64,000 bases of DNA from Porphyra umbilicalis. Its lineage: Eukaryota; Rhodophyta; Bangiophyceae; Bangiales; Bangiaceae. The stretch lies in the NCBI GenBank assembly GCA_002049455.2, contig KV918803.1, positions 62,001 to 126,000 on the forward strand. Direction: 5' to 3'. A program made the translations under genes and the position numbers. The notes beneath the pieces were generated by a model, which was given only the letters and a program-made list of their open reading frames with translations, had not been told where the DNA came from and did no database searches. The first letter of the stretch is position 1, and each line of letters starts with the position of its first letter. Shown piece by piece: positions 906 through 35,399 of this stretch.

Positions 906-1344
906 TTTTCCTTGATGTCCACGGCCCGTGCGCGAACCCGCACAGGCGCCGCCTGGTAAGCACACGAGGGTTCCAACGATTCCTACTGACGAGGACCGCC
1001 ACATCACCGAAATTAGTTCCAACAACCAGATGGTACTAGACGGCGGTTCATCGCAAAAGATGCTTGTGAATCGAAGTGCCTTTTTCCATGTCCCGTTATT
1101 CTGTACCTGGTGGGATGTCTCCGTTCGATATTTTCAGTATTCGTCCAGATCCATCATCGAAGAGAATAAATTCAATCTGTCTATCCGAAAAATATCCGAA
1201 ATCCGACTAATTGAGTGTCCTATTATACTGTTGATCCTGACTCTGTCCGGCCCAGCAAGATCCGATTTCGGATAGATGACTTAGGCAAATACTCAATCCA
1301 GAATGCATGTGAGGGGATGTGGAATATATCCTAATGCAATAAAA
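906..1344. other. AT-richer spacer, no gene recognised
   Basis: Base composition is clearly more AT-rich than the neighbours. Scattered TATCCGAAA and GGAATATATCC words resemble the ATATCC-rich sequence of the small hAT-like element at 19314-20065, so part of it may be an old relative. I could not define ends. The gypsy-derived sequence begins abruptly at about 1345. Confidence 0.4.
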
Positions 1345-4331
1345 AGTGGCTGATTCCAAAGCCCCTTGTAGTAATACCGCCGCATGGCCGCGTACATGCG
1401 GGACTCACCGGGGTGCCCCGCGAGGGTCGAGTCGTGCTCCAGGTCGACGACCTGCTCCTGCAAGGAGGTCGGGACCACCACTGGGTGTGCGCCGTCGGGT
1501 GCCGCGCGTCGGCGGAGGATCCCATCGGGGTCCTCGAAGAATGGGATGCGCCGGCCGGCGTTCAGGGCCTTGACAACCTCTTGGCAGTACCCATCCTGGG
1601 CTTGGGCCGAGAGCACCGCGTCGCGGTCGATGCCACGGACCGTGGGGCCGCCGACGTAGTTGGCGGCGTCGAGGCCCCGCACCGTATTGGCCCGCACGGC
1701 GAAGACGGGGACGGCGTCGTCATACGACGTCTGGTCGCTTCCCCCGCACTTCAAGCGGGAGATGGTATCCGCCATGTAATGCGTCATCCCCGGCTTGTAG
1801 GCGACGTCGAACTCCAAGTCGCTCAGGCGTAAGCGCCAGCGTGCCAAGCGGGGGTTTCCCGAGCCCTCGATGTTGAGGATCCACCGGAGGCAGTCGTGGT
1901 CCGTGCGCACGAGGAAGTGGTCCCCTTCAAGGTAGGGGCGGAGCTTGAGCGACTCCCAGACGACCGCCTGGCATTCTTTCTCCGTGACCCCGTAGGGGAG
2001 TGCATTTGTCGCCAGCCGCCGGCTGATGTATGCGACCGGCTGGAGCTTCCCGTCGTCTTGCTCCTGGAGCAGGGCGGCGCCCACTTGCGTCCCGCATGCA
2101 TCCACGTCCAGCACTTACTTCCGCCCGCGCCGCGGGAGTGCGAGGATCGGTGGGGTCGTGAGCGCCTCCTTGAGCCGTTCGAAATCCTGCTGCTGCAGTG
2201 GCGTGGCGGGTGGCACTAGGACAGGGGCCGTGGACCCCATGAGGTCCGTCAATGGCGCCGACATCGGGGCGAAGTTCGGCACGAACCGGCGGAAGACTTT
2301 TAACATCCCCACGAAGCTCCGGACTTGCGTGCGGGTCGCGGGGAAGTGCGCCGCGCGCAGTGCACGCGTGTGCGCGTCCATCACGCTGAGCCGGCCCGGC
2401 TTGATTTCGTGCCCGAGATACTCCACGGTCCTACAAAAAAACCGGCACTTGGGCAGCCGGCGTGTCACTTTCGCGTCGCACAGCAGGCGTAAGACGCGAT
2501 GGACGTGGCCCACATGCTCCTCCTCCGTCTTGGAATGCCAATGACATCGTCGAGGTAGATGAGGCAGCTTTGCCGCTTAACACCGGAGAAGATGATGTCC
2601 AGCGCCCGCTGGAACGTCGCGGGCGCGTTCGTCAAGCCGAACAGCATCCGTTTATACTGGTAGGCGCCCTCGTGGCACACGAAAGCCGTCTTCTCACGGT
2701 CTTCGGGTGCGATGGCAACCTGCCAGTAGCCGGCATTGCAATCCAGCGTCGAGAAGATGGTCGCCTCGCCAAGGCTGTCGATGCACTCGTCCGTTCGGGG
2801 CAGGGGGTACGAGTCCTTCTTGGTCACGACATTCAGCAGTCGATAATCGACGCAGAAGCGGAGGGTGCCATCCTTTTCGGGGACGAGCACGACCGGGAAG
2901 CCCCATTCTGACGACGTTGGTTCGATGACGTCCGCCTCCAGCTGCCGCTTGACCTTGGCCGCTTCGACCTCCTGTGCCGCGTGGCCCGCGCGACGCGGCG
3001 CGAAGCGGACAGGCCGGGCGCCGGCGGTAAGGTCAATGCGGTGTTGGGTGGCCTTGATGACGCCTCGTGCCTGGCCCGTCCACATTGCTTTGTGCTTGCC
3101 AAGCATGCGGCGGATCCGGGCGAGCAGCGCCGGGTCGGTATCCGGTAGTTCCACGTCCTCCACTTGGAATTGGGGTCCGGGTGCCCCTGCGGCCGGCAAA
3201 GCGTCGCCTTCACCCGGATCCCGGGGTCGCGCTGGCGTCGCGGGCCCCCCGTCCGCTGGCGCCGTCGTGTCTGGGCCCCGCCCCGGTGTAGGGTCGCACC
3301 AGGTGCCCAACACCGCGCCCACCACGCCTTCGGCGGCCGCTGCCGTCTTGACAGCTGGGGCGGGCAGCGTCTCGTGGGGTGCCCCGTGGGGCACCTGCAC
3401 GTCGCCCGTCGTGAGAACCTTGACGTAGCAGACGTTGGCCCTCTGCCGGAGGATGACCTCACGCGCGCCGAAATTTGTCACGATGACCGGGAAGGATAGC
3501 CCCGGCACGATGTCGTGCACGCCGTTGGCGATGGTGACACCATGTTTTGTGAACAGGAGTGAGGCTCCAAACACCTGGCCTTGGCCCCCTTACATGGTTG
3601 GCACCAAGACGACCGTGGCCGCTGACGGCGGGAGCCGCGTCCTGTATGTCTGTGTCGAGCGAAGAACGCGGGAGACGCCCATTGAGCGGTCGCCATCGTC
3701 CAATGGTCCCCGCAGAATCGCCGTGACGGACACGTCCGTCCAACGGATGGACCGGTCCCGAGGCAGGATGGCGTGGGCGTTGTCGTCGATGAACGTACAG
3801 CCCAGGATAACTGGGAGCGACAGGTCGTCGACGAGGAGGAAGGGCACAGAGACGATCCGGGCGCCCGTCTGGAGCCACAGCGTGACGGTACAGCTAGGGC
3901 GCAACCGCGCGTTATTGGCGTCCCGGAGGCGTACCTGCTCTGTCTTCTAGGAGGTGACCACCTGGCGGAGCCAGTAAGGGCCGAGGGCGTTCCGGCGGAC
4001 CAGGTTGGGGCCCGCCTTCGTGTCCACGACGACGCCAAACGCGACGAAGGACAGCTTGTCCAGGCCCAGTGAGGCCACGATGCGGTAGTTGCGAAGGCTG
4101 AAAAGCAGAACGTACCCGCCCCCGAACGGTGTGTGCGGCGCTCCCAAGGTGGCCGCGACGGCGGCGGCGTGGCGGCGAAAGCGGGTACGCTCGCGCCAGG
4201 CGCGCCGACCGAGGCGCCCTCGCAGCCCCCCCCCCGGTGCATGTCCCATTGGCGGGCGTGTCCACCTGGATGCCCTCCCGACCACCCCACGATCGGAGGT
4301 CGGAGTGGCCAAGGGCCAGTACCGATGCGGC
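1345..4331 (-). mobile_element. Ty3/gypsy fossil G1, pol region (protease-like, RT, RNase H, start of integrase)
   Basis: Read on the minus strand from 4331 downward. An upstream retropepsin-like region comes first, then a reverse transcriptase with the FCVDYRLLN block, the LFGLTNAPATFQR block and a YLDDV catalytic motif (about 2550-3050). The palm/connection follows (LGHEI, about 2410), then RNase H (LDVDACGTQVGAAL, about 2100; LVRTDHDCLRW, about 1880), then the H2C2 zinc region of integrase (about 1370-1450). The order RT-RNase H-integrase is that of Ty3/gypsy. The element is broken by several changes and lacks the rest of integrase and its 3' LTR. Its other pieces lie at 9291-10499 and 15459-18089. 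Confidence 0.85.
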
Positions 4332-4749
4332 TGTTGAAGAGCGGTGGGGATAGGGGTGGGGGGACCACGGTCAAGTGGTTCAGTGGCTCGAGCTTGTGTG
4401 TGTGTGTGCGAACGTGCTTTGTTGGTTGTCCTCAGGATCGCCCGCCTCTCCCAACCGAGAGCACCTCTCAAATAGTCCCCACCGGCCCAAGTGCTCCCCC
4501 CTCTCGCGCCCATACCGACGCCCACGCCATCGCACCAAATCGAATCACTCACCAAATCAAAAGTCACTAGAGCAAAGCGAAGATCAAATCCAAAACATGC
4601 CAAAAGTAACGCCCCAAGATGACCCAACACGAACGTGTGCAACTTGACCACGTCTTGCAAATGTACCATGTGGGGTACCATAAGGGTCACCGACCATCAT
4701 CCATCCGCGAACCGCCAGTGGAGCCGGCGACGAGCATCACAGTCCAACA
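4332..4749 (-). repeat. C1 3' LTR (418 bp)
   Basis: Starts TGTTGAAGAG and ends AGTCCAACA on the + strand. It differs from the 5' LTR at 8873-9290 at about 20-25 positions, but over much of its length it agrees better with the 3' LTR of C2 (15041-15458). Confidence 0.9.
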
Positions 4750-4784
4750 CTCCTCCTTGCTTGTTGCCGCGGCGGTTCTTGTTT

Positions 4785-7700
4785 TCAGCAAAGCCCCATG
4801 GCCTCGACATGCTTGTCGTGCTTGGTCTTTCCGAGCTCCTTCGTCATCGGGTCCGCCACCATGTCGTCTCTTGCACAAAGCTCCAGTGTCACCTTGTCCG
4901 TCGTGATGGCCTCGCGCACAAAGTGGTAGCGAATGTCGATGTGCTTAGTGCGCTTGTGCTCGACGGGGTTCTTGGAGAAGTCAATGCACCCGCTGTTGTC
5001 GACCTTGATGTTGATCGGCCCGCCCGAGATCGCTGTCCGCAGCCCTTGAGTTGCCACGCTTTGCACGAGCTTGTTGAGCCAAACAGCTTCCTTGCTGGCC
5101 CCACATGGAGCCATGTACTCGGCTTCCATCGTCGACAGCGCCACCGTCTGCTGCAACTTAGAACCCCAGCTGACGGCTGCTCCGCCAAAGATGAAGGTGA
5201 AGCCCGTCGTAGAACGTCGCGTCTCGTGGTAACCCGCCCAGTCGGCATCACTAAAGCCTTGTAGAACACAGGAAGAGTTCTTGTCGAAGACCAGCCCCTT
5301 GTCCATCGAACCCTTGACGTACCGTAGAACGCGCTTAATCGCCGCCCAATGCTCCTTTCTGTAGCACGAAACAAACCGACTCAGCTTCCCGATAGCGAAG
5401 GCGAGGTCAGGACGTGTCCCGACCATCAGGTACATAAGACTGCCGACGGCTTCGCGATAGGGCAGCGCGTCGTCGCTCACGTCGGCCTTGACCAGCTGCA
5501 GGCCCACCTCCAGCGGCGTTCGGATCGGGTTGCACTCCGCCATCCCGAACTTCTCCAGCACTTGCGCCGCGTACTTGCCCTGCGACAGCTTGAGGGTGCC
5601 CAACACCTTGTCACGTCTAATCTCTAGCCCGAGGATGACCTTCGCCTCGCCCAGGTCCTTCATCTCAAAACGCTTGTGCAGAGCGTCCTTAATCTTGTAG
5701 ATCGCCGCCAGGCTTGATGCCACCAACAGGAGATCGTCGACGTACACCAGGACGATGATGATTTCGCCGCCATCCATGAGGAGGTAGAGGCATGCATCCG
5801 GGTCAATGTTGTCAAACTTCTGCGACTTGAGGAAGTCGTCGAGCTTGGCGTACCACATCTTGGGGGCTTGCTTCAGCCCATACAGCGCTTGGAGGAGACG
5901 ACACACCTTGTCAGGATACGTCGGATCGACATAGCCATCTGGCTGCTCCATGTAGACGTCCTCGTCAAGGTCGCCGTTGAGGAATGCCGTCTTGACGTCC
6001 ATCTGATGTAGCTCCCACCCGTTCGCCGCCGTCATCGCCAGGATGCATCGATTTGTGGTAAACTTGGCCACCGGCGCGAACGTCTCGTTGAAGTCGAGCC
6101 CCTTGATCTGCCAGCTCCCCATGAAGCACAGGCGCGCCTTGTGCCGCGTCGTGTTGTTCCCGTTCTTGTCAACCTCGTTCTTGACCTTGTACACCATTTT
6201 GCCCTTCAGCACGCGTCGACTGGCCGGGCGATCCGTCAAGCGCCAAGTCTTGTTCTTGCGGATGACCTCCATCTCCTCGTCCATGGCAATCTTCCACTGA
6301 GCCGATTCCTGCCCTTGAGCGGCTTGCACGTACGTCGTGGGCGCCTCGTGAGCAACCAGGCTCACCGGGCGCCAGTACTCGACAGGGGATCGCCGCGCTC
6401 TGCCGCTCCGACGCAGCGTGTCGTGAGAGCCGGCACTACCTTGGTTGTCGTCCGCGGTCTTGTCAGATCCATCGTCTTGCTTGTCGTCCTTGTCGTCATG
6501 GTCAGCATCGACGTCTTTGCCGTCGCTTGCAGAGCGCGAACCCGTCTCGACTTCGACAACTTCGTCTCCGGGAAGCTCCTCCGCAACTTCTGGGACCTCG
6601 CTTATGTTCGTCTCGGCGAACACAACGCTTCGTGCCTTGACGACCCTGCCGTCGTCGAGGATGACCTTGTACGCCTTGCTGCCGTCGGGATTGCCTAAGA
6701 AGACGCCAATCGCCGCCTTGTCGCCAAACTTGCCGTCGATGTGACTCTTGTGCAGCACGACCCAGCATGTCGACCCAAACACCCGCATGTGGCTTACCTT
6801 GGGCTTATTCCCGGTCCACAGCTCAAAAGGCGTCTTGCCAACGGGAAGTGCCCGGCTGGTGACGCGGTTCTTGATGTAGACTGCCGTCTTGATGGCATCC
6901 GCCCAGAGATCTTGATCGACGTCCTTGTGTCGCATCATGGTGCGAGCCATCTCCACGAGAACTCGATTGAGCCGCTTAGCAACTCCGTTCTGCTGCGGCG
7001 TGTCGGGCACCGTGGTCTGGTGCGTCGTGCCGTTCTCATCGTGAAGAGCCTTGAATGCATTCGACACATACTCGCCGCCATTGTCGGAGCGCAGGATCTT
7101 GATCTTGGTTCCCGTGTGCAGCTGGGCCTTCGTCAGCCGCTCCTTGTACTCAGAGAGCAGATCGCTCTTCTTCTGCAGGAAGACCACGCCTGTCCAGCGG
7201 CAGAAGTCGTCGGTGAAGGTGCCAAAGTAGAGCGCACCGCCACGCGACGGCTCCGACATTGGCCCGCCCAGGTCCGAGTGCACGAGCTGCAGGCGCTTGC
7301 TGACTCGACCTCCTCCCGCACTAGGCATAGGCGTCATAGCCGCCTTCCCATACACGCACGGCTCGCAGACGTCCTTGACCGCCATGGAAGAGCACTTGAG
7401 TCCATCGATGTCCTTGTTCTTGATCATCCGCTTAACGCCAGCCACGTTGACGTGCCCAAGGCGCTCATGCCAGAGCTGAAGAGAGGCCACCGCAGCAATA
7501 TCCGACAGTGGGGCCATGTCCAGGTGGTAGAGCCCACTCTTCCGCGTGCCGCACGCAGCGACCTTGTCGCTAATCTTTATGATCGTTTTACCGCCCTTGA
7601 ATGACACTTCCGCACCACGCTCCTCCATCATGCCGACCGACATGAGGTTGAAGCCCATGGTAGGAACATGGAGTACCTTCTCCAACTTGATCTTGCGCAT

Positions 7701-7862
7701 CTTGCCGTGAACGATGACATTGAGCACGACGGTTCCGACGCCCGCCGTGGCTACGGACCCCTTGTCGCCCATGGTGACGCTGCGTCCCGTGGTCTTCTGG
7801 TAGTCGTCGAAGCATTCGCGCATCCAGCACATGTGTGCAGACGCCGCAGAATCGACAGCCAC
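4785..7862 (-). CDS. pol: C1 Ty1/copia pol polyprotein
   Basis: An open frame of about 1025 residues on the minus strand. Protease-like start (VDSAASAHM; family consensus has DSGA), then the pre-integrase HHCC region (LWHERLGHV with CEPCVYGKA), the rve integrase core (DDFCRWTG and the SDNGGEY block), and a DTPQQNG-type segment. A charged Asp/Lys linker follows, then reverse transcriptase (HQMDVKTAFLNGDLDEDVYM; VYVDDLLL) and RNase H (GFSDADWAG; STMEAEYMA; KHIDIRYHF). Its 5' end overlaps the gag frame by about 110 nt in another frame, an arrangement Ty1-type elements are known to express by frameshifting. The same layout is present in C2. Confidence 0.9.
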   Translation of the reverse strand: MAVDSAASAHMCWMRECFDDYQKTTGRSVTMGDKGSVATAGVGTVVLNVIVHGKMRKIKLEKVLHVPTMGFNLMSVGMMEERGAEVSFKGGKTIIKISDKVAACGTRKSGLYHLDMAPLSDIAAVASLQLWHERLGHVNVAGVKRMIKNKDIDGLKCSSMAVKDVCEPCVYGKAAMTPMPSAGGGRVSKRLQLVHSDLGGPMSEPSRGGALYFGTFTDDFCRWTGVVFLQKKSDLLSEYKERLTKAQLHTGTKIKILRSDNGGEYVSNAFKALHDENGTTHQTTVPDTPQQNGVAKRLNRVLVEMARTMMRHKDVDQDLWADAIKTAVYIKNRVTSRALPVGKTPFELWTGNKPKVSHMRVFGSTCWVVLHKSHIDGKFGDKAAIGVFLGNPDGSKAYKVILDDGRVVKARSVVFAETNISEVPEVAEELPGDEVVEVETGSRSASDGKDVDADHDDKDDKQDDGSDKTADDNQGSAGSHDTLRRSGRARRSPVEYWRPVSLVAHEAPTTYVQAAQGQESAQWKIAMDEEMEVIRKNKTWRLTDRPASRRVLKGKMVYKVKNEVDKNGNNTTRHKARLCFMGSWQIKGLDFNETFAPVAKFTTNRCILAMTAANGWELHQMDVKTAFLNGDLDEDVYMEQPDGYVDPTYPDKVCRLLQALYGLKQAPKMWYAKLDDFLKSQKFDNIDPDACLYLLMDGGEIIIVLVYVDDLLLVASSLAAIYKIKDALHKRFEMKDLGEAKVILGLEIRRDKVLGTLKLSQGKYAAQVLEKFGMAECNPIRTPLEVGLQLVKADVSDDALPYREAVGSLMYLMVGTRPDLAFAIGKLSRFVSCYRKEHWAAIKRVLRYVKGSMDKGLVFDKNSSCVLQGFSDADWAGYHETRRSTTGFTFIFGGAAVSWGSKLQQTVALSTMEAEYMAPCGASKEAVWLNKLVQSVATQGLRTAISGGPINIKVDNSGCIDFSKNPVEHKRTKHIDIRYHFVREAITTDKVTLELCARDDMVADPMTKELGKTKHDKHVEAMGLC

Positions 7863-8848
7863 GACTTGGAGATGTCATCGGTGTCAGCCGCATTGCCCAC
7901 CAGACAGATGGCGTCGTCGCTGTCGCTACCGTCGTCAGCCGCAATCGCGGCCGCCTTGTCCTGTCTCTTCTTCTTGGCCTTGAGCTCTGGGCAATCGTGA
8001 GAGATATGCCCAAACTTATGGCAGTAGTAGCACTCGATCTTGGAGAGGTCACCACGGCGGCCTTGACCTCGATAGCTGGCGCCGACGAGTGCCATGTCGC
8101 CAATGCGCTTCTTCGCCGGTGACTTGTCCGCCTGCCGCCGCTCCTCCTGAAGCAAGCGGCTCTTGACAAAGTCGAAGCTCAGCTCCGTCTCGCCCTTGGC
8201 GTCGAGAGCCACCAACAGGTTCTCGTACTTGTATGTCAGCCCGTTGAGGACGCTCATGGCAACGTCCATCTCCGTCACCTCGCGGCCCATGGCCTTGCGG
8301 TTCTCGCCGAGGTTGCGCACGCGGTTGATGTAGCCCAGCATGCCCTCGCTGACGGTTATTTCGACGGTGTAGAACTCGCGTCGCGCCTTCATCTTGTTCA
8401 TCAAACTCTTGCGCTGGAAGACACCTTGCAGCGTCGACCACATTTCCGACGTCGTCTTGCACCCCGCCACGTGCTCGAGCTGCTCAGATCCAAGGGTGAG
8501 CCCGATGATGGCGCTCGCCTTCGTTTCTCGACGCTTCCACACCGCCAACTCGCGGGCATCCGCGTCCGTCGGCTTGCCGTCTTCGTCAAGCATATCGTCC
8601 AGGTCGCGCAGCGCGAAGACCATCTTAATGCGCTGACGCCACTCGTGGAAGTTCGTCTCCGTCAACTTGTCGATCTTGATGCCGCCCATGCCTGCAGCGA
8701 TTCCGTCCGTGATGTCTTTCTTGTCGTAACGCCCGACCTTGCCGAGCCGTGTCCCTTGACCGTCACGTCCTTGAACCACCTTGACCTCGTCTTCTTCGCA
8801 CTTGCCGCGACCGCCGCGACACCAGCCGGCACACCTTGCTCTTGTCAC
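7751..8848 (-). CDS. gag: C1 Ty1/copia gag protein
   Basis: About 365 residues on the minus strand. The middle has the UBN2-type capsid region of copia elements (LTETNFHEWRQRIKMVF; a W..L..VF-type block, here WSTLQGVFQ; LNGLTYKYENLL). The C-terminal third has one zinc knuckle, CYYCHKFGHISHDC, of the CX2CX4HX4C form that binds genomic RNA. An acidic Asp/Ser tail follows. The upstream part of the open frame includes untranslated leader; a start at the MGGIKIDKL methionine is plausible. Confidence 0.85.
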   Translation of the reverse strand: MTRARCAGWCRGGRGKCEEDEVKVVQGRDGQGTRLGKVGRYDKKDITDGIAAGMGGIKIDKLTETNFHEWRQRIKMVFALRDLDDMLDEDGKPTDADARELAVWKRRETKASAIIGLTLGSEQLEHVAGCKTTSEMWSTLQGVFQRKSLMNKMKARREFYTVEITVSEGMLGYINRVRNLGENRKAMGREVTEMDVAMSVLNGLTYKYENLLVALDAKGETELSFDFVKSRLLQEERRQADKSPAKKRIGDMALVGASYRGQGRRGDLSKIECYYCHKFGHISHDCPELKAKKKRQDKAAAIAADDGSDSDDAICLVGNAADTDDISKSWLSILRRLHTCAGCANASTTTRRPRDAASPWATRGP

Positions 8849-8872
8849 AGCCCCGGCTCTCGGCCCATAACC

Positions 8873-9290
8873 TGTTGAGACGCGGTGGGGATAGGGGTGG
8901 GGGGACCACGGTGAAGTGGTTCAGTGGCTTGAGCTTGTGTGTGTGTGTGCGAACGTGCTTTGTTGATTGTCCTAAGGAATGCCCGCCTCTCCCAACCGAG
9001 AGCACCTCTCAAATAGTCCCCACCGGCCCAAGTGCTCCCCCCTCTCGCGCCCACACCGACGCCCATGCCCTCGCACCAAATCGAATCACTCACCAAATCA
9101 AAAGTCACTAGAGCAAAGCGAAGATCAAATCCAAAACAAGCCAAAAGTCACGCCCCAAGATGACCCAACACAAATGTGTGCAACTTGACCACGTCCTGCA
9201 AATGTACCATGTGGGGTACCATAAGGGTCACCGACCATCGTCCAGCCGCTGACCGCAAGTGGAGTCGGCGACGAGCATCACAGTCCAACA
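8873..9290 (-). repeat. C1 5' LTR (418 bp)
   Basis: Starts TGTTGAGACG and ends CAGTCCAACA on the + strand. For most of its length it is almost identical to the 5' LTR of C2 (10500-10917). The primer site of C1 lies just inside it, at about 8858-8872. Confidence 0.9.
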
Positions 9291-10499
9291 CTCAGGGCCG
9301 GACCTTCTTCAAGCTACGAAAGTTTCTCTCCAATACGGGAGCAGCCGCGCGCGAGGCCCGGGGAGTCAAGCTCCAAGCCAAGCCCAAAGGGGGCACCCCC
9401 CGGTCGGCCGGCGGCGAAGAACGGGAGGCCCGTCGGGCCCGGCCGGCTGCGTCCGTCGCCCTCCCGGTGGGAGCCGCCTCGGCCGCGGCGGCCCTGGCCA
9501 TAAAGGATTACGGGACCGAAGCGGAACGGGCCGAGTGGGCCGCGATACTGGCCGCAACGGCAGCGCTTGTCGCGAACGGCCCTCCGGGCGATGTCCAGGT
9601 ACTACCGGTTGATGGCCTCCGGCACGCGTCGGGCTGGAAACAACAGCCCGTGTGGGGCGTGCGCCCGGAGCTGTACCCCGTTCGTACGGGAGCGGGGCGC
9701 GGGCGCGGCACCCTGGCGCCGGGCACCCCCGTGCCCCCGCGGGCGGGTACCGTCTTTTCGAACTCTGACCGCCCACTGCGTATCCCTTGTGGCGGGGCCC
9801 CTCCGCCGCGCTATGGCGCAAGGGGCGGCGCGCCCGAGATGGGGGCCCCGCCCCGGCGGCGGGGGGCCTTCTCGTTCTGTGGCACCCTGGGACACTGAGT
9901 GTGGGAGAGCCCCGCCCAGTCACCCGAGGTGCGTGCCCACGGACGTGCGCTGCGCAAGGCCGTCGCGGCGCACCGGAACGGGCGTGGACCTGCACCGCCT
10001 GCGCCCTTGCCTTTGGGCTTGGGACCGCCCGTCGCGCCCCTGCCGCCGGCCGTGACCACCAATGCGTCCGGCCCGCCGGGCACGGCCGCGTTCGTGCACG
10101 CCGTAGAAGCGGATGATCGGGCGTACCCGGGCGCTGCCGGCAACGAGGGGGAGAGCTTTTCCGAGGAGTGGGCCGCGGGCGCCGACGACGCAGAACGCGG
10201 AGACGGCCGCCCTTGCCACGCCCAGGGAAACGAGTAAGGGACAGCCCCATGAGTGGGCTGCCCACGGACGTCGTCCGTCTCAAGGCTTACCGGCACTGCT
10301 ACATCACGGCGACCCGCCTGCACCAGGTCCGAAAGAGGCGGGCAGCAGCGGGATTCCCGCCAGTGCCCGCCTTCTGCCCCCGCATCTTAGCAAGGCCCGG
10401 CAAGGGCAGCAGTGCCGCGGCGGAAGTGCCGGACCACCACACCGTCTTGGCGGCGCCGGAGGCCACCAAGACTGTCCCTCCGCATCCGCCGGTCGCCGC
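9291..10499 (+). mobile_element. Ty3/gypsy fossil G1, gag C-terminal/nucleocapsid segment, flipped
   Basis: Plus-strand translation (GRTFFKLRKFL onward) matches the gag of gypsy element G2 at 63240-64000 (GGSFTKLKAHL onward) in the same order. It includes a proline/glycine-rich stretch and a zinc-knuckle-like FCGTLGH segment near 9880 that corresponds to CYDPGHWAEQC of G2 near 63790. The flanking parts of G1 (1345-4331 and 15459-18089) are on the minus strand, so this piece is inverted relative to them. It lies exactly between the two copia elements. Broken. Confidence 0.75.
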
Positions 10500-10917
10500 T
10501 GTTGGACTTTGATGCTCGTCGCCGGCTCCACTGGCGGTTCGCGGATGGGTGATGGTCGGTGACCCTTATGGTACCCCACATGGTACATTTGCAAGACGTG
10601 GTCAAGTTGCACACATTTGTGTTGGGTCATCTTGGGGCGTGACTTTTGGCTTGTTTTGGATTTGATCTTCGCTTTGCTCTAGTGACTTTTGATTTGGTGA
10701 GTGATTCGATTTGGTGCGAGGGCACGGGCGTCGGTGTGGGCGCGAGAGGGGGGAGCACTTGGGCCGGTGGGGACTATTTGAGAGGTGCTCTCGGTTGGGA
10801 GAGGCGGGCATTCCTTAGGACAATCGACAAAGCACGTTCGCACACACACACACAAGCTCAAGCCACTGAACCACTTCACCGTGGTCCCCCCACCCCTATC
10901 CCCACCGCGTCTCAACA
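10500..10917 (+). repeat. C2 5' LTR (418 bp)
   Basis: Begins TGTTGGACTT and ends TCTCAACA. Most of it matches the C1 5' LTR nearly perfectly, but the first about 60 bp are closer to the two 3' LTRs, so it looks mosaic. Confidence 0.9.
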
Positions 10918-10931
10918 GGTTATGGGCCGAG
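10918..10931 (+). other. C2 primer-binding site (initiator tRNA-Met anticodon arm)
   Basis: GGTTATGGGCCGAG directly follows the 5' LTR. Its complement, CTCGGCCCATAACC, matches the anticodon stem-loop of eukaryotic initiator tRNA-Met (CTGGGCCCATAACC) except at one base. Drosophila copia is known to prime from an internal fragment of this tRNA. The same site is present in C1 (minus strand) and, without mismatch, in C3. Confidence 0.7.
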
Positions 10932-10941
10932 AGCCGGGGCT

Positions 10942-12039
10942 GTGACAAGAGCAAGGTGTGCCGGCTGGTGTCGCGGCGGTCGCGGCAAGTGCGAAGAAGA
11001 CGAGGTCAAGGTGGTTCAAGGACGTGACGGTCAAGGGACACGGCTCGGCAAGGTCGGGCGTTACGACAAGAAAGACATCACGGACGGAATCGCTGCAGGC
11101 ATGGGCGGCATCAAGATCGACAAGTTGACGGAGACGAACTTCCACGAGTGGCGTCAGCGCATTAAGATGGTCTTCGCGCTGCGCGACCTGGACGATATGC
11201 TTGACGAAGACGGCAAGCCGACGGACGCGGATGCCCGCGAGTTGGCGGTGTGGAAGCGTCGAGACACGAAGGCGAGCGCCATCATCGGGCTCACCCTTGG
11301 ATCTGAGCAGCTCGAGCACGTGGCGGGGTGCAAGACGACGTCGGAAATGTGGTCGACGCTGCAAGGTGTCTTCCAGCGCAAGAGTTTGATGAACAAGATG
11401 AAGGCGCGACGCGAGTTCTACACCGTCGAAATAACCGTCAGCGAGGGCATGCTGGGCTACATCAGCCGCGTGCGCAACCTCGGCGAGAACCGCAAGGCCA
11501 TGGGCCGCGAGGTGACGGAGATGGACGTTGCCATGAGCGTCCTCAACGGGCTGACATACAAGTACGAGAACCTGTTGGTGGCTCTCGACGCCAAGGGCGA
11601 GACGGAGCTGAGCTTCGACTTTGTCAAGAGCCGCTTGCTTCAGGAGGAGCGGCGGCAGGCGGACAAGTCACCGGCGAAGAAGCGCATTGGCGACATGGCA
11701 CTCGTCGGCGCCAGCTATCGAGGTCAAGGCCGCCGTGGTGACCTCTCCAAGATCGAGTGCTACTACTGCCATAAGTTTGGGCATATCTCTCACGATTGCC
11801 CAGAGCTCAAGGCCAAGAAGAAGAGACAGGACAAGGCGGCCGCGATTGCGGCTGACGACGGTAGCGACAGCGACGACGCCATCTGTCTGGTGGGCAATGC
11901 GGCTGACACCGATGACATCTCCAAGTCGTGGCTGTCGATTCTGCGGCGTCTGCACACATGTGCTGGATGCGCGAATGCTTCGACGACTACCAGAAGACCA
12001 CGGGACGCAGCGTCACCATGGGCGACAAGGGGTCCGTAG
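10942..12039 (+). CDS. gag: C2 Ty1/copia gag protein
   Basis: Nearly the same protein as the C1 gag (two residue differences seen). UBN2-type capsid region in the first two thirds and the zinc knuckle CYYCHKFGHISHDC at about 11760-11801, then an Asp/Ser-rich acidic tail. The leader between LTR and coding region is short. The end overlaps the start of pol by about 110 nt in another frame. Confidence 0.85.
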   Translation: MTRARCAGWCRGGRGKCEEDEVKVVQGRDGQGTRLGKVGRYDKKDITDGIAAGMGGIKIDKLTETNFHEWRQRIKMVFALRDLDDMLDEDGKPTDADARELAVWKRRDTKASAIIGLTLGSEQLEHVAGCKTTSEMWSTLQGVFQRKSLMNKMKARREFYTVEITVSEGMLGYISRVRNLGENRKAMGREVTEMDVAMSVLNGLTYKYENLLVALDAKGETELSFDFVKSRLLQEERRQADKSPAKKRIGDMALVGASYRGQGRRGDLSKIECYYCHKFGHISHDCPELKAKKKRQDKAAAIAADDGSDSDDAICLVGNAADTDDISKSWLSILRRLHTCAGCANASTTTRRPRDAASPWATRGP

Positions 12040-15005
12040 CCACGGCGGGCGTCGGAACCGTCGTGCTCAATGTCATCGTTCACGGCAAGATGCGCAAGAT
12101 CAAGTTGGAGAAGGTACTCCATGTTCCTACCATGGGCTTCAACCTCATGTCGGTCGGCATGATGGAGGAGCGTGGTGCGGAAGTGTCATTCAAGGGCGGT
12201 AAAACGATCATAAAGATTAGCGACAAGGTCGCTGCGTGCGGCACGCGGAAGAGTGGGCTCTACCACCTGGACATGGCCCCACTGTCGGATATTGCTGCGG
12301 TGGCCTCTCTTCAGCTCTGGCATGAGCGCCTTGGGCACGTCAACGTGGCTGGCGTTAAGCGGATGATCAAGAACAAGGACATCGATGGACTCAAGTGCTC
12401 TTCCATGGCGGTCAAGGACGTCTGCGAGCCGTGCGTGTATGGGAAGGCGGCTATGACGCCTATGCCTAGTGCGGGAGGAGGTCGAGTCAGCAAGCGCCTG
12501 CAGCTCGTGCACTCGGACCTGGGCGGGCCAATGTCGGAGCCGTCGCGTGGCGGTGCGCTCTACTTTGGCACCTTCACCGACGACTTCTGCCGCTGGACAG
12601 GCGTGGTCTTCCTGCAGAAGAAGAGCGATCTGCTCTCTGAGTACAAGGAGCGGCTGACGAAGGCCCAGCTGCACACGGGAACCAAGATCAAGATCCTGCG
12701 CTCCGACAATGGCGGCGAGTATGTGTCGAATGCATTCAAGGCTCTTCACGATGAGAACGGCACGACGCACCAGACCACGGTGCCCGACACGCCGCAGCAG
12801 AACGGAGTTGCTAAGCGGCTCAATCGAGTTCTCGTGGAGATGGCTCGCACCATGATGCGACACAAGGACGTCGATCAAGATCTCTGGGCGGATGCCATCA
12901 AGACGGCAGTCTACATCAAGAACCGCGTCACCAGCCGGGCACTTCCCGTTGGCAAGACGCCTTTTGAGCTGTGGACCGGGAATAAGCCCAAGGTAAGCCA
13001 CATGCGGGTGTTTGGGTCGACATGCTGGGTCGTGCTGCACAAGAGTCACATCGACGGCAAGTTTGGCGACAAGGCGGCGATTGGCGTCTTCTTAGGCAAT
13101 CCCGACGGCAGCAAGGCGTACAAGGTCATCCTCGACGACGGCAGGGTCGTCAAGGCACGAAGCGTTGTGTTCGCCGAGACGAACATAAGCGAGGTCCCAG
13201 AAGTTGCGGAGGAGCTTCCCGGAGACGAAGTTGTCGAAGTCGAGACGGGTTCGCGCTCTGCAAGCGACGGCAAAGACGTCGATGCTGACCATGACGACAA
13301 GGACGACAAGCAAGACGATGGATCTGACAAGACCGCGGACGACAACCAAGGTAGTGCCGGCTCTCACGACACGCTGCGTCGGAGCGGCAGAGCGCGGCGA
13401 CCCCCTGTCGAGTACTGGCGCCCGGTGAGCCTGGTGGCTCACGAGGCGCCCACGACGTACGTGCAAGCCGCTCAAGGGCAGGAATCGGCTCAGTGGAAGA
13501 TTGCCATGGACGAGGAGATGGAGGTCATCCGCAAGAACAAGACTTGGCGCTTGACGGATCGCCCGGCCAGTCGACGCGTGCTGAAGGGCAAAATGGTGTA
13601 CAAGGTCAAGAACGAGGTTGACAAGAACGGGAACAACACGACGCGGCACAAGGCGCGCCTGTGCTTCATGGGGAGCTGGCAGATCAAGGGGCTCGACTTC
13701 AACGAGACGTTCGCGCCGGTGGCCAAGTTTACCACAAATCGATGCATCCTGGCGATGACGGCGGCGAACGGGTGGGAGCTACATCAGATGGACGTCAAGA
13801 CGGCATTCCTCAACGGCGACCTTGACGAGGACGTCTACATGGAGCAGCCAGATGGCTATGTCGATCCGACGTATCCTGACAAGGTGTGTCGTCTCCTCCA
13901 AGCGCTGTATGGGCTGAAGCAAGCCCCCAAGATGTGGTACGCCAAGCTCGACGACTTCCTCAAGTCGCAGAAGTTTGACAACATTGACCCGGATGCATGC
14001 CTCTACCTCCTCATGGATGGCGGCGAAATCATCATCGTCCTGGTGTACGTCGACGATCTCCTGTTGGTGGCATCAAGCCTGGCGGCGATCTACAAGATTA
14101 AGGACGCTCTGCACAAGCGTTTTGAGATGAAGGACCTGGGCGAGGCGAAGGTCATCCTCGGGCTAGAGATTAGACGTGACAAGGCGTTGGGCACCCTCAA
14201 GCTGTCGCAGGGCAAGTACGCGGCGCAAGTGCTGGAGAAGTTCGGGATGGCGGAGTGCAACCCGATCCGAACGCCGCTGGAGGTGGGCCTGCAGCTGGTC
14301 AAGGCCGACGTGAGCGACGACGCGCTGCCCTATCGCGAAGCCGTCGGCAGTCTTATGTACCTGATGGTCGGGACACGTCCTGACCTCGCCTTCGCTATCG
14401 GGAAGCTGAGTCGGTTTGTTTCGTGCTACAGAAAGGAGCATTGGGCGGCGATTAAGCGCGTTCTACGGTACGTCAAGGGTTCGATGGACAAGGGGCTGGT
14501 CTTCGACAAGAACTCTTCCTGTGTTCTACAAGGCTTTAGTGATGCCGACTGGGCGGGTTACCACGAGACGCGACGTTCTACGACGGGCTTCACCTTCATC
14601 TTTGGCGGAGCAGCCGTCAGCTGGGGTTCTAAGTTGCAGCAGACGGTGGCGCTGTCGACGATGGAAGCCGAGTACATGGCTCCATGTGGGGCCAGCAAGG
14701 AAGCTGTTTGGCTCAACAAGCTCGTGCAAAGCGTGGCAACTCAAGGGCTGCGGACAGCGATCTCGGGCGGGCCGATCAACATCAAGGTCGACAACAGCGG
14801 GTGCATTGACTTCTCCAAGAACCCCGTCGAGCACAAGCGCACTAAGCACATCGACATTCGCTACCACTTTGTGCGCGAGGCCATCACGACGGACAAGGTG
14901 ACACTGGAGCTTTGTGCAAGAGACTACATGGTGGCGGACCCGATGACGAAGGAGCTCGGAAAGACCAAGCACGACAAGCATGTCGAGGCCATGGGGCTTT
15001 GCTGA
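11928..15005 (+). CDS. pol: C2 Ty1/copia pol polyprotein
   Basis: About 1025 residues. Same domain series as C1: protease-like start, HHCC pre-integrase region near 12315-12450, integrase core near 12500-12850, acidic linker near 13200-13380, reverse transcriptase near 13540-14280 with the YVDD active site at about 14046-14057, RNase H near 14535-14950. Only three residue differences from the C1 protein were noticed. Confidence 0.9.
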   Translation: MAVDSAASAHMCWMRECFDDYQKTTGRSVTMGDKGSVATAGVGTVVLNVIVHGKMRKIKLEKVLHVPTMGFNLMSVGMMEERGAEVSFKGGKTIIKISDKVAACGTRKSGLYHLDMAPLSDIAAVASLQLWHERLGHVNVAGVKRMIKNKDIDGLKCSSMAVKDVCEPCVYGKAAMTPMPSAGGGRVSKRLQLVHSDLGGPMSEPSRGGALYFGTFTDDFCRWTGVVFLQKKSDLLSEYKERLTKAQLHTGTKIKILRSDNGGEYVSNAFKALHDENGTTHQTTVPDTPQQNGVAKRLNRVLVEMARTMMRHKDVDQDLWADAIKTAVYIKNRVTSRALPVGKTPFELWTGNKPKVSHMRVFGSTCWVVLHKSHIDGKFGDKAAIGVFLGNPDGSKAYKVILDDGRVVKARSVVFAETNISEVPEVAEELPGDEVVEVETGSRSASDGKDVDADHDDKDDKQDDGSDKTADDNQGSAGSHDTLRRSGRARRPPVEYWRPVSLVAHEAPTTYVQAAQGQESAQWKIAMDEEMEVIRKNKTWRLTDRPASRRVLKGKMVYKVKNEVDKNGNNTTRHKARLCFMGSWQIKGLDFNETFAPVAKFTTNRCILAMTAANGWELHQMDVKTAFLNGDLDEDVYMEQPDGYVDPTYPDKVCRLLQALYGLKQAPKMWYAKLDDFLKSQKFDNIDPDACLYLLMDGGEIIIVLVYVDDLLLVASSLAAIYKIKDALHKRFEMKDLGEAKVILGLEIRRDKALGTLKLSQGKYAAQVLEKFGMAECNPIRTPLEVGLQLVKADVSDDALPYREAVGSLMYLMVGTRPDLAFAIGKLSRFVSCYRKEHWAAIKRVLRYVKGSMDKGLVFDKNSSCVLQGFSDADWAGYHETRRSTTGFTFIFGGAAVSWGSKLQQTVALSTMEAEYMAPCGASKEAVWLNKLVQSVATQGLRTAISGGPINIKVDNSGCIDFSKNPVEHKRTKHIDIRYHFVREAITTDKVTLELCARDYMVADPMTKELGKTKHDKHVEAMGLC

Positions 15006-15040
15006 AAACAAGAACCGCCGCGGCAACAAGCAAGGAGGAG

Positions 15041-15458
15041 TGTTGGACTGTGATGCTCGTCGCCGGCTCCACTGGCGGTTCGCGGATGGATGATGGTCGG
15101 TGACCCTTATGGTACCCCACATGGTACATTTGCAAGACGTGGTCAAGTTGCACACGTTCGTGTTGGGTCATCTTGGGGCGTTACTTTTGGCATGTTTTGG
15201 ATTTGATCTTCGCTTTGCTCTAGTGACTTTTGATTTGGTGAGTGATTCGATTTGGTGCGAGGGCGTGGGCGTCGGTGTGGGCGCGAGAGGGGGGAGCACT
15301 TGGGCCGGTGGGGACTATTTGAGAGGTGCTCTCGGTTGGGAGAGGCGGGCATTCCTTAGGACAAGCAACAAAGCACGTTCGCACACACACACACAAGCTC
15401 AAGCCACTCAACCACTTCACCGTGGTCCCCCAACCCCTATCCCCACTGCGATTCAACA
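15041..15458 (+). repeat. C2 3' LTR (418 bp)
   Basis: Begins TGTTGGACTG and ends GATTCAACA. In its first two thirds it agrees with the C1 3' LTR (shared CATGTTTTGG and CACACGTTCG words) rather than with its own 5' LTR. Confidence 0.9.
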
Positions 15459-17441
15459 CTGGGTGTTGAAGTTCCGCCTTAGGGCCCGGACCTCCCGTCC
15501 GATGCCCTTGAGTAGGATACTTTTCAGCTCGGACTCTTGCAGGACCGAGCCCATAGCGCGTTTGGCATCGAGGATTTAGTTCGCGAACTCATGCTCGTCC
15601 TCCCACTTCTCCTCGGACGCTTGCATGAGCGACTGAATGTGGTCCACCAGGTCATCCCCGTCGAGGTTGGCGTTGAGCAAAGCGCGGACCGCGCGCTTGT
15701 ACCTGAGCTGCCGCGAGGCATGCTCATCCTTTGCGCGCTGGAGCACCCCGAGCACCTCGCTCGTGACGAAGTACTGCAGCAGTGTCACTGCCTTCCCCTC
15801 ATTTAGGCCGCTCCCGTCGCACGCCGTCTGGAAGTTTCCGAGGAACGGCACCAACCCCAGCGGGGTGTCACCCGCGAACTGCCGCGACGTGTGTATAAAT
15901 GCCTTGACGTCCGCGCGGATGCCGTGGATGGATTTGCCTCGCGGGAGGTGTGTGCGGCCTCCTCGCTGCGCGGGCCGGTACCGCTCCGCCGACAGTAGTC
16001 CCTTGAAACGGGAATCGACCACCGTGTCCTTCCGCTGCTCCCGTCGGAATTCGCGCAGCGCCTCTTGTACCAGGGCCCGTTGTGGCCGCTTGTCGGCCGC
16101 CCGAGCCCGCCCTCGGCGTCGAGTTGCCCCGGGGTCACTGCCGGTGGCGGAGGAGGAGGTCGAGCCGTTGCTGTTGTCTGTAGAGTCCGCCTCACTGGGG
16201 TCGGAGGACGAGCCCGGCGGACTCTTGTCACTTTCGGTCGACGATGGGGGCCCCGAAGGGGGGGGTGACGGGGCCCGTCTGGCGTGCTGACGCCCTCGGT
16301 GGCCCGTAGAGGGAACAGACTTCGGGCGCCGACGCTCGGCGGCCCTCTGGGACCGCGGCCGCGCAGGACGCGCGGCCGGCGAGGCAGCCACCGTCAAGGC
16401 GGGCCCCAACCCGGTAACGCCCCGCATCCGGGGGCGCTCCCCGGACGTGCCCGACCCGGTTTCCGGTGGTGCCGGTACGCCCGCGCTCGCGGGCCCAGGG
16501 AAAGGTCCCTGGGCCGCCGAGAGGGCTAGGGCAACGGCCGCGCCTCGCCCCGGGACCGGGGTCCCTTCCGATGCCGCGGTCGACGCCTTTTTCGCAGCGT
16601 CACGGAACACTTGAGAAAAGTGGCGCAGGTGCCCGAGGTCAACCGCCGCCCGCGGCAGTCCTGGAGTCGTGGCCCCGCCGACCTCCTGAAAAACTCGGCC
16701 CCGACCCGCCCGGCACGGACGGCGCGTCCAGTGACCAGTGTTCCCGGGTGGTACGCTGCCACTGTACCCGGGCCACGTGTTCCGGGGTGACCCCGAAAAC
16801 TCTCTGTAGCTCCCGACGCGGTTGCTCCTCTTCCTCCGGCGACAGCGTGTCCGTTGGTCGGATCGGTCCCAGGCTGGTGGGCTGCCCACCAGTCCGGGTA
16901 CCTGACGAGCTGCGCACCGCCTCCATGCGGGGTGGGCCGAAGGGCGGCGCCCCGACTGGGCACTGCCTATCCAGGGGCGAGGGATGAACACGTACGCCCC
17001 CACGCTGGGGCTCCACCGGCGTAGAAGTCCGTCCCGCGCCGGGGAGAGGGCGAGCCCCGGTGGTCGGCGTGCGGCCGCGGTCCTCGGGCAGGGAGTTCGA
17101 CGCACCTGCCACCGTACCGCGGCCACCACCCGGGACCGCCCTTCCACCGCCAACGAAGGCCACGGCGCCCAACGCCAGCGTTGCCCCGGGGTCTCCCGCC
17201 GGTGGCGCGTCCGTCGGGCGGCTAGTGCCGGTCATATCAAACGGAGGAGCGCCCTCCGTCGAGCGGGGAAGATGAGGAAGATCTGCGGGCCATGGAAGCG
17301 GGGCCCGCGTATCGGTCGGATGTCCTCCGTCACCGCACCGCAATACAACCCACGAGGGTCCCCCGACTCTTGGTAGCGAAAGAGGTGTCGATCCGCGATA
17401 CGCACCGCGTGCGTGCAGCGGGTCTCACCCAAAGCGACAAA
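15459..17441 (-). mobile_element. Ty3/gypsy fossil G1, gag region and leader
   Basis: Minus-strand translation gives a long Pro/Arg/Ser-rich N-terminal region and then a capsid-like segment (about 15580-16050) that matches G2 gag at 62600-63240: both have a V.SRFKGL / VTDPRFAPL block, a conserved Phe-Leu and Gln-rich helix series, and a VSETVMVVIRR / VTSEVLGVLQR block. The capsid C-terminus abuts C2 at 15459. The leader next to the LTR (17300-17441) has no obvious tRNA primer match. Broken. Confidence 0.75.
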
Positions 17442-18089
17442 TGTAGTACTACAATCTAGATGGGTTTCCTCAGAAGGAGAGAAGTAACGGCAGTCTCAGC
17501 CGCTCGCGCGACACCCGCTATGGGACTCGAGGTGCGGGAAGTCGGTCCGATTGAAACACCAAGACATCGAGTCACGGTTTACTTGCTGGCGACGACGGTG
17601 CCTCCCACCGTCGTCGCCCTTCTTCCTAAAGGGGCGATAATCGTCGCCCGGGCCCAATTTCCCCAAATGGGAATTGACCCGGGCCTTCACCAACCAATGC
17701 AGATGATTCCCTCCATGCATATCAAGTCCCCGGAGGCGATCATTACAGACGAGGGGGGAATACCGTCCCACGCGCAACGCGCTGCACCCGCCGCGTGGCG
17801 CCCGGTCGGCCGTCGCCTGCCGCGCCCTCTCGGGCGCGCCAGCGCCATCTCGGGCGCGCCAATCCGGCCTTCTGCGGGGCCCGCGTGCCGGGCGCGGCGG
17901 GTCGGGTACGCTCCCCGGGTGGCCCGAGCCGGTCAGCGGGGCCGCCCCCTCGCCCCGGTCCCCGCGTCGCCGCCGCGTCGGCAACCACCGCCGCTGGCGT
18001 CGTCACCCCCCTTCGGGTACCGCGTCCCCCGGCGTCGCCGACGTTCCTGCGGTGGCCCCCTCGCGCATAGGGGGCCCCGTAGTACTACA
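17442..18089 (-). repeat. Ty3/gypsy fossil G1, 5' LTR (about 648 bp)
   Basis: Bounded by inverted TGTAGTACTAC / GTAGTACTACA ends at 17442-17453 and 18079-18089. The interior has a run of about 10-20 bp GC-rich blocks and a GGGAATTG / CAATTTCC-type hairpin near 17650-17690. A related, shorter version of the interior (GCCCAATTTCCCC..GGGCGACGA) is found upstream of G2 near 62130-62200. It ends two bases before the 164-bp tandem array. Confidence 0.7.
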
Positions 18090-18091
18090 CT

Positions 18092-18840
18092 GGGTGACTG
18101 CGGCGGCGACGCCGAATGTGACCGACGGCTTGCACTTCCCGTCGGCGCCGTCGTCGACGAGGTTCCCCTCGTGGCTGACCATGACACCAACGTTGACGCC
18201 GTCGCCGTCGTTATCGTGCGCGCGTTGGAGGGCGGCGCAGTTGTCGCCGCCATCCGGGTGACTGCGGCGGCGACGTAGAATGTGACCGACGGCTGGCGCT
18301 TCTCGTCGGCGCCGACGTCGACGGTGTTCCCCTCGTGGTTGACAATGTCACTGACGCCAACGCGGTCGACGCCGGCGTGGTCCACTATATGGAGGACAAC
18401 GCACTGGTGGTTGCCATCGCGTCAACCGCGACGGCGATGCTCAAGGCAACCGTCGTGTTGGCCGGTACGTTGATGTCCGAAGGGACCGCGATGCGCTTTT
18501 GGTTGGCTACGTGACAGACGTCGACGTAATAGCCGCCGTCGTCGTGCGCGCCGAGCATGACGATGCAGGATTCGTCGTCATTCGGGTGACCGCTGCGGCG
18601 ACGAGGACTGCTACCGATAGCTTGCACACCCGTCGGCGCCGTCGTCGTCGTCGTTGCCGTCGTCGTTGGCATCGTGAGCGACACCGATGCGGTCGCCGCC
18701 GTCCCCATGCACGCCGGGGAGGGCGGCGCAGTTGTCGCCACCGTCCGGGCGACCGCGGCAACGTCATTCAAGGCGACCGTCGGAATGCGCTGCTCATCGT
18801 CGCCATTGCCGACGACGTTCCCCTCTTCATTTTTTCCCCT
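18092..18840 (+). repeat. 164-bp tandem array, about 4.5 units
   Basis: Unit starts marked by GGGTGACTGCGGCGGCGACG or variants lie at 18092, 18256, about 18420, 18584 and 18747, that is every 163-164 bp. Units share CCGACGGC, GTCGGCGCCG and TTCCCCTCGTGG words. The period is not a multiple of three, and the frame that reads VTAAAT changes from unit to unit, so this is better seen as satellite DNA than a repeat protein. Similarity fades after about 18840. Confidence 0.75.
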
Positions 18841-21925: not shown

Positions 21926-23049
21926 CCTAGCTCAATATCTCCGTCAGTGTCATCCTGCAGACAGTGCACTCGCACAAGTTCGAAGTTCCCCAGACGAACG
22001 GGGGGAGGTCACCGGAGGGGGGCCTGGGGGGGGGGCGGCCGCCATGGTGCCAATGGAGGAGGGGCGAAAAAGGAGAGGAGAGAGGGCGGCAACAGGGGAC
22101 GCAACGACGGGGCTGGCACGCCGAAAGAGGGTCAGGGCCATGAGCATCGAGCTTGGTGTTGCACGGGGGCGCGCCGAGGTTGGTGGCAGGTGCCGACCAG
22201 CGACGAGATGGTGCCAGTGCCAAGGCACCAGCCCAGGCTGCCGCCTGTGGTCGCGGACCGTGGGCACGCTGATTTGCTGAGGCCGGCGCAGACTCGGATG
22301 ACCGGGGGTGCCTTGACTGCACAGTCATGTGAGGAACACTGCAATTTAATTTACTGCTGTCTCCCGTGGACCAATGACGAAGAAGTACCTCGGGAGCAGA
22401 TGGTCAATTGAATGCGCCTTACCGAAATTTTCTGGTTAAACAGTCCAATCTACGACCGCGCATCCGACATGCCTGCAGTGGGGTCTCCGAGAGGAACCAT
22501 TGCTCGCCGTCCTGCCCAACATGACTTCTTGTCGTGAGTTCCCTGCGCAGGAGAGTGGCGACGGCGCAGCAGGGTGTCGTGGTCGGAGGGGTGGCAAGCA
22601 CGGCCAGATGGCCGCTATGCTTTTTTCCTCCCTCGAGCGCCCTCGTACGGGCCACTGATGACCGCCTACCGCCAGTGGGAAAGCAGCCAGCCTGCCCCGC
22701 CGGCTCCATTGCACCGTTAATGCGAAGACGTGCTGTGCTTGCTGGATTCGATACTTGCCCGCAATTTCCGACTGATACGCGTATGTCGAAGGCAGTTGCC
22801 CCCAGCTGACCAATAGCGGAACAGAAAGTGCAACATGGTGTGTAATTGAACGAAGAATGAGACCTTGAATTGGCACGGCTTTCCACCTTGATCTGTGCAT
22901 CCGACGGCATGTGAAGGAGGGACTATTCCTCGCCGGAGCCCGGGCTCCCTCGGACGTCCCGCATTTTCGGTCATCTGGGCTGTGCTTGGCCACTTGAATG
23001 GGACAGTCACTCCCTCATCCCCTCCCTCACCACCCCACTCACCGCTGCG
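21926..23049. other. Intergenic, no gene recognised
   Basis: Contains a G-rich tract at 22015-22040 and several short frames on both strands with no motif. The 133-185 residue minus-strand frames overlap each other and lack plausible composition. May include the promoter of the F-box gene, but no TATA-like box was seen. Confidence 0.3.
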
Positions 23050-31535: not shown

Positions 31536-32068
31536 CTCTCGAGAGCTTCGCAGATCGTGTATTAATAGTTGCCTTCAGACCATTTTCTTGTCGACCCATT
31601 CTCCCCCATGAGCAAACCTACCAATGTCAAAGGACTATCCTTAAAATATCAATTGGGCTTGCGACGTGGCGCCCCCTCACAGGCCGCCTATTGTAGACTC
31701 CTGAAATGGGAAATATGCGCAATAGAGTTACTCCTGACAGGGCTACTTTTTCATCGATAGCCCTCTTTGTTGGTGGGCGGTTCGTGGCCCATCCCTCGTA
31801 ATAAACCGTTCGAAGAATCTCCGAGCCTCCAGCGAGGCGTGATCCGCGAGATCCGCTGCAGATTGCGGTCGACAGGCCGACGAAAGGCAGCGATCGACTG
31901 ACTCGAAAGCAGACACGAAGCACAAGTATGGCCAGAACTGGAAGATCGTCGTCATAAACGTGGATTGAGTGATACATGGCAGCTCCACAGGCTGCCACCG
32001 TGCAGGGCCAGGACGATCTGTCAGCCAATCACACATGCAAGAATCACAGACGGGATTGTGTGCATCCA

Positions 32069-32170
32069 CACAGCGCCACACAGCGCCACATAGCGCCACA
32101 GAGCCACACAGAGCCACACAGAGCCACACAGAGCCACACAGAGCCACACAGAGCCACAGAGCCACACGGC
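32069..32170 (+). repeat. 10-bp tandem repeat (GCCACACAGA)n
   Basis: About ten units: first ACACAGCGCC versions, then GCCACACAGA versions. It lies inside repeat R1 copy B; copy A lacks it, so it expanded after the copies separated. Confidence 0.9.
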
Positions 32171-34178: not shown

Positions 34179-34181
34179 TAA

Positions 34182-35396: not shown

Positions 35397-35399
35397 TTA

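Follow-up and report, generated by a model that had tools for sequence, protein, structure and literature searches.

A gypsy segment in reversed orientation between two inverted copia elements with crossed target-site flanks in Porphyra umbilicalis

A 64,000-nucleotide (nt) stretch of the Porphyra umbilicalis genome (assembly GCA_002049455.2, contig KV918803.1, positions 62,001 to 126,000, forward strand; hereafter the window) carries two nearly identical copia elements, here called C1 and C2, which lie in opposite orientations within what remains of a gypsy element. Both are retrotransposons bounded by long terminal repeats (LTRs). The 1.2-kilobase (kb) piece of gypsy sequence between them runs in the opposite direction to the gypsy sequence on either side, the short flanks of the two copies are crossed, and the copies share a near-identical core with divergent ends. 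The explanation that we prefer, with a probability of roughly 0.6, is that two copia elements inserted into one gypsy element, that recombination between them turned over the middle, and that their core was homogenised by gene conversion. The parts of the locus, with positions numbered from the first base of the window, are as follows.

1296-4326, minus strand: gypsy left flank, with a motif near 4033 that we take to be protease-like, followed by reverse transcriptase, RNase H and an integrase zinc-binding domain
4327-4331: target site a, left copy, GCGGC, the exact reverse complement of 10495-10499
4332-9290, minus strand: copia-order LTR element C1, with LTRs of 418 nt each at 4332-4749 and 8873-9290
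9291-9295: target site b, middle copy, CTCAG, matching the reverse complement of 15459-15463 at 4/5 positions
9291-10499, plus strand (flanks on minus): gypsy segment in flipped orientation, covering the C-terminal part of gag and the sequence ahead of the protease, with four in-frame stops
10495-10499: target site a, middle copy, GCCGC, pairing 5/5 with 4327-4331
10500-15458, plus strand: copia-order LTR element C2, with LTRs of 418 nt each at 10500-10917 and 15041-15458
15459-15463: target site b, right copy, CTGGG, matching the reverse complement of 9291-9295 at 4/5 positions
15464-16076, minus strand: gypsy right flank, gag homology with one in-frame stop

The inverted arms, 4332-9290 and 10500-15458, are 4,959 nt each, differ by 30 mismatches with no gaps, and enclose a spacer of 1,209 nt. 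Within each element the two 5-nt flanks agree at only 0/5 and 1/5 positions, whereas across elements, read as reverse complements, they agree at 5/5 and 4/5. An earlier note on this DNA had named exactly these four 5-mers and described them as unlike within elements and paired across them, and our comparison bears out both statements. When four 5-mers were drawn at random from the window 1,000,000 times, a crossed pairing of at least 9/10 appeared with a frequency of 5e-5, and a pairing of this quality in either arrangement with a frequency of 9.9e-5. Chance is therefore disfavoured as the source of the flank pattern, at about 1e-4.

The change of orientation between the two copies is equally direct. 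On the minus strand of the left flank the domains follow the order RVT_1, RT_RNaseH and then Integrase_H2C2, that is, reverse transcriptase and RNase H before integrase, as in gypsy elements. Pol domains lie on the minus strand at the left and gag on the minus strand at the right, while gag in the middle lies on the plus strand. The same note had claimed that 9291-10499 is opposite to the gypsy sequence around it, and in this sequence the opposite orientation of the 1.2-kb middle is real.

A relative of the host element in the same window provides an independent reference for collinearity.

62548-63999, plus strand: second gypsy gag, open to the window end, with residues numbered from base 62614

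This frame has no Pfam match; it was identified from its similarity to the right flank and from a zinc-knuckle-like motif. In a self-comparison of the window, the right flank read on the minus strand is 30% identical to it (expectation value, E, 4e-19), and residues 9-213 of the 214 in the right flank align to residues 1-211 of the second gag. Plus frame 2 of the middle matches residues 213-433, scoring 142 (z 8.5; the best of 200 shuffles for this frame scored 104), whereas the remaining five frames give z values of -1.0 to 2.1, with no excess over their shuffled controls. When the first 60 residues of the middle are aligned alone, frame 2 scores 49 and again starts at residue 213, while the other frames score 30-38 and align elsewhere. 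The right flank ends at residue 211 and the plus-strand middle resumes at 213, so that the gag alignment is interrupted no more than one residue from where the copia element inserted. Middle frame +0 also matches several frames of the second gag region, with E down to 6e-10 among the matches listed when low-complexity and composition corrections are off; in the shuffle-controlled alignment this frame reaches only 81, below its best shuffle (98), and these matches were regarded as composition-driven and not used. Counting one 5-nt copy per site places both the gag frame and that of the protease-like motif in middle frame +2. Turned back, the middle is thus collinear with its relative, at site b by homologous gag and at site a by reading frame only.

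The divergence of the two arms is distributed very unevenly. The 5' LTR holds 9 mismatches in its outer 95 nt and 2 in its remaining 323 nt; the 4,123 nt between the LTRs hold 6; the 3' LTR holds none in its inner 220 nt and 13 in its outer 198 nt. In C1 the divergent ends are located as follows.

4332-4529, minus strand: outer end of the C1 3' LTR, 13 differences from C2 in 198 nt
9196-9290, minus strand: outer end of the C1 5' LTR, 9 differences from C2 in 95 nt

The outermost 293 nt therefore carry 22 mismatches (7.5%) and the inner 4,666 nt carry 8 (0.17%), with borders that were set after the mismatches had been seen. A scan for the best two-rate split puts 19 mismatches in 159 nt against 11 in 4,800 nt, which was matched by 0/300 uniform placements. 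Decay at CpG dinucleotides is not favoured as the cause of LTR divergence, as the 30 arm mismatches consist of 14 transitions and 16 transversions, with 10 touching CpG.

The two LTRs of a new LTR element are identical at birth. In C2, however, they differ at 15/418 sites (3.6%) and in C1 at 23/418 (5.5%), yet the stretches between the LTRs differ by only 0.15% from one copy to the other. LTRs this far apart within copies whose cores are 99.85% alike indicate that the cores were homogenised later, and this is most simply explained by gene conversion or something like it. Comparison of all four LTRs gives 30 variable sites. None of them (0/30) shows the pattern of untouched insertions, with LTRs paired within elements, and none (0/30) shows the pattern of a bare crossover, with the 5' LTR of one copy paired with the 3' LTR of the other; a crossover without conversion is therefore rejected. 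Six of the 30 pair 5' with 5' and 3' with 3'. These six sites are not decisive against an inversion, because they would also arise, as differences between the two insertions, if a crossover fell inside the elements and C2 then took over the core of C1. We scored eight distinct schemes by the number of variable sites that each places with one split. A crossover inside the element, after which the core of C1 was copied onto C2, places 19/30 sites, conversion from C2 to C1 without a crossover for 15/30, four further conversion schemes for 5, 9, 10 and 10, and the two schemes without conversion for 0. The LTR data demand homogenisation and only lean toward a crossover, which is carried by the flip and the flanks.

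Taken together, these results are consistent with the following course of events. A gypsy element with its sense strand on minus would have received two separate copia insertions in opposite orientations, each with a 5-nt target duplication, one in gag (site b) and the other in the stretch that separates gag from protease (site a). The inverted copies would then have undergone homologous recombination with each other, which turned over the 1.2-kb middle, leaving each copy with one duplication from each site. Exchange between the arms without crossover would have homogenised a core of about 4.7 kb by gene conversion, and the outermost 95-198 nt of the LTRs, which adjoin non-homologous DNA, would retain older differences. 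More than one round of inversion or conversion is possible. We infer that these events belong to the history of the organism and did not arise during assembly, and likewise infer their order and the donor, which would be C1 to C2 if the crossover is accepted. As to the earlier note, its proposal of two insertions into one gypsy element with a turned-over middle gains from the gag collinearity and from the frames that agree at both sites; its proposal of recombination between the inverted copies is incomplete, as the bare crossover fits no LTR site and conversion is needed as well, and it does not take into account that an assembly error would leave the same flanks.

Several points weigh against this explanation. 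Target site b is mismatched at 1/5 positions. Site a has no protein homologue, since the second gypsy gag runs off the window, and the agreement of frames that supports it would arise 1 in 3 times by chance, so that site a rests mainly on the exact 5/5 pairing of its flanks; moreover, middle frame +2 at site a contains four stops. In the comparison of schemes the segment borders were also picked after the mismatches had been seen, and 19 against 15 sites is a weak preference for the crossover scheme. The usual test for a crossover, chimeric copies, is unreadable after homogenisation of the core. Finally, every feature of the flip would equally be expected had the middle been turned over during assembly.

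The last point leads to the most serious rival, which we regard as possible but clearly less likely. Each copia copy would have its own matched duplication in the organism, and failure to span the near-identical 5-kb arms would have led the assembler to turn the middle; consensus copied from one arm to the other may be partly responsible for how alike the cores are. Such an error yields the same crossed flanks and the same collinearity when the segment is turned back, and repeat collapse or polishing could also produce a near-identical core whose divergent ends are anchored in unique DNA. On the other hand, the 64-kb window contains 0 N, which suggests long reads or clones that would often span 5 kb, and eight differences persist in the inner 4,666 nt, where an outright copied core would have none. 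Neither of these two observations is decisive. In addition, with true differences of several per cent between the cores, comparable to those at the ends, short reads would hardly have been confused.

We also consider it conceivable, though rather unlikely, that the locus is a live flip switch, in which the arms keep recombining, individuals of a population or cells differ in the orientation of the middle, and the cores are thereby kept alike. If this were true, only the outer LTR ends would diverge and LTR age would be misleading, as the core (8/4,666) would suggest a young pair and the LTRs (3.6% and 5.5%) an old one.

The other rivals are far less probable. An aberrant paired integration, in which two simultaneous copia DNAs each joined one end to site a and the other to site b and inverted the stretch in one step, without recombination between resident copies, would give topologically the same product with crossed 5-nt duplications, and aberrant transposition is weighed as an alternative for DNA transposons in the account of PMC2775673. 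It requires, however, two irregular integrations at once, and conversion would still be needed, as the LTRs, alike at birth, are now 3.6% and 5.5% apart against 0.15% for the stretches between the LTRs. These points make it very improbable. Such integration is not known to us for copia elements, and no literature search aimed at it was made.

Slightly less credible still is a history of two insertions and gene conversion without any inversion, in which the flanks would be paired by chance and the gypsy element would have been rearranged earlier in some other way; conversion from C2 to C1 alone does cover its 15/30 variable LTR sites, but the middle is flipped, the gag alignment breaks within one residue of the insertion site and chance flanks have a probability of about 1e-4. 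Just as implausible is a single copia insertion later copied by an inverted segmental duplication, for although LTR differences across copies (11 between the 5' LTRs and 13 between the 3' LTRs) are fewer than those within copies (15 and 23), the arm homology ends at the element ends, where flanking DNA would be expected to have been carried along, and the four flanks sort into two site pairs.

Earlier work has described inversions that arose between inverted transposon copies and left their target duplications exchanged. BuT5 is a transposon other than an LTR element. The accounts cited report ectopic recombination between inverted copies of Galileo, with exchanged target-site duplications, for inversion 2z3 of Drosophila buzzatii (PMC2775673), and exchanged target-site duplications at BuT5 for inversion 2s of D. 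mojavensis (PMC3355041). As in the Galileo case, opposite-orientation copies stand at both ends of the inverted stretch, and as in both cases the duplications are exchanged and reverse-complementary across copies (PMC2775673, PMC3355041). Galileo, however, is a cut-and-paste transposon (PMC2775673), unlike the LTR retrotransposons described here, and by these accounts both inversions are chromosomal, whereas the stretch turned over here measures 1.2 kb. In the case of 2z3, according to PMC2775673, chromosomes without the inversion and with single target sites were available, and the copies were described as chimeric; at our locus the chimera signal has been erased by homogenisation and one sequence only is available.

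Gene conversion among LTR elements is likewise described in human LTRs (PMC4921805), in plants (PMC7251063) and in crapaud of Podospora anserina (PMC10787394), and like the copies here, those in the accounts given include copies with two unlike LTRs, attributed to conversion or ectopic recombination. For crapaud, 7/150 full copies with unlike LTRs are reported (PMC10787394). Between linked LTR copies conversion is described as more frequent at shorter distance (PMC4921805). In our case nearly all of the element is homogenised, up to but not including the outer LTR ends, compared with maximum tracts of 14-450 bp given in PMC4921805. The inverted arms also resemble the palindromic repeats of willow sex chromosomes, whose arms are described as being kept alike by gene conversion (PMC7023750), although the arms here are two transposon copies and not a duplicated chromosomal stretch. 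The locus thus combines inversion and conversion in an LTR element, and we do not claim that a copia case is absent from the literature. It changes no general picture. Its value is that of a compact example, in which inversion between inverted retrotransposon copies is joined with homogenisation that fades toward non-homologous borders. It also cautions that one locus can appear old by the LTR clock and young by whole-element identity, and illustrates how a paralogous gag allows a small inversion to be tested in a single sequence.

The assignment of C1 and C2 to copia relies on the following frames, all measured stop to stop.

4788-7874, minus strand: C1 pol frame, 1029 amino acids, integrase ahead of reverse transcriptase
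7754-8920, minus strand: C1 gag frame, 389 amino acids, its start reaching into the LTR, with a Retrotran_gag_2 match
10870-12036, plus strand: C2 gag frame, 389 amino acids
11916-15002, plus strand: C2 pol frame, 1029 amino acids

All four element ends read TGTTG or CAACA, in keeping with LTRs that begin with TG and end with CA. In C1 the Pfam domains are Retrotran_gag_2 in gag, and gag_pre-integrs, rve and then RVT_2 in pol, which is copia order. Among solved structures, C2 pol has a single match at E up to 0.001, to the integrase 7z0h_W (E 1.1e-14), which we take to be that of Ty1. Neither copy has a matching target duplication on both of its sides; as mismatched flanks within each element are what an inversion predicts, the copia assignment rests on domain order and not on flanks. 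The third catalytic residue of the integrase has changed to lysine in both copies and is conserved in 4/4 comparators (a second copia of the window, 7z0h_W and the two contigs described below), and the protease motif is altered in both but intact in its single comparator, the second copia. The alterations of the two motifs are identical in C1 and C2. Presuming that these motifs have their usual catalytic meaning, C1 and C2 are probably copia members by descent that are no longer active by themselves. Their common lesions fit the overwriting of one copy by the other, but also mobilisation in trans from one defective parent. Between the LTRs, 5/6 differences change an amino acid (gag 2/2, pol 3/4), so that the sequence shows no sign of constraint after homogenisation; errors in sequencing would give the same picture. 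Gag and pol occupy separate frames in C1 and C2 and a single frame in the second copia of the window. This second element, a different one at 50764-56722 on the plus strand, has LTRs of about 373 nt that are 98.9% identical, one frame of 1,490 amino acids without stops, and the usual protease and integrase motifs, and its pol is about 32% identical to that of C2.

Around the gypsy host no LTR pair was found by a repeat search of 1-22000 or by self-BLAST. No frame of at least 120 amino acids occurs in 1-1292, a stretch that the domain scan did not cover, and the left end of the host may be truncated. The open frame that runs on from the right flank to 17231 has no Pfam match. No relatives of the copia pol, the gypsy pol fragment, the second copia or the second gypsy gag were confirmed in viral_contigs, phage records searched by protein gave no relatives, and Rfam gave no match at gathering scores. 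In genome_contigs, two contigs that encode a copia-type pol (VBAU01000265.1 and VBAU01000180.1) were found in a metagenome-assembled genome assigned to Bacteroidetes, where they are probably eukaryotic contamination of the bin. They are 33% and 35% identical in their best segments and therefore too distant to polarise the LTR changes.

Several further repeats are present in the window. At 34046-38611 lies a long imperfect palindrome (34179-35399, 68% self-complementary), resembling a foldback element, accompanied by related stretches at 34046-34185 and 38465-38611, each of about 140 nt. An inverted repeat pair of 0.76 kb with 90% identity is found 35 kb apart at 24032-24796 and 60093-60836, and 1-869 is related in opposite orientation to 31610-32340, at 70-77% identity in two pieces. 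At 17974-18825 a unit is present in four diverged copies, at spacings of 164, 164 and 327 nt. Finally, a frame of 380 amino acids at 22915-24057 carries an F-box domain, the sole non-transposon domain above the Pfam cut-off among the 20 window frames scanned.

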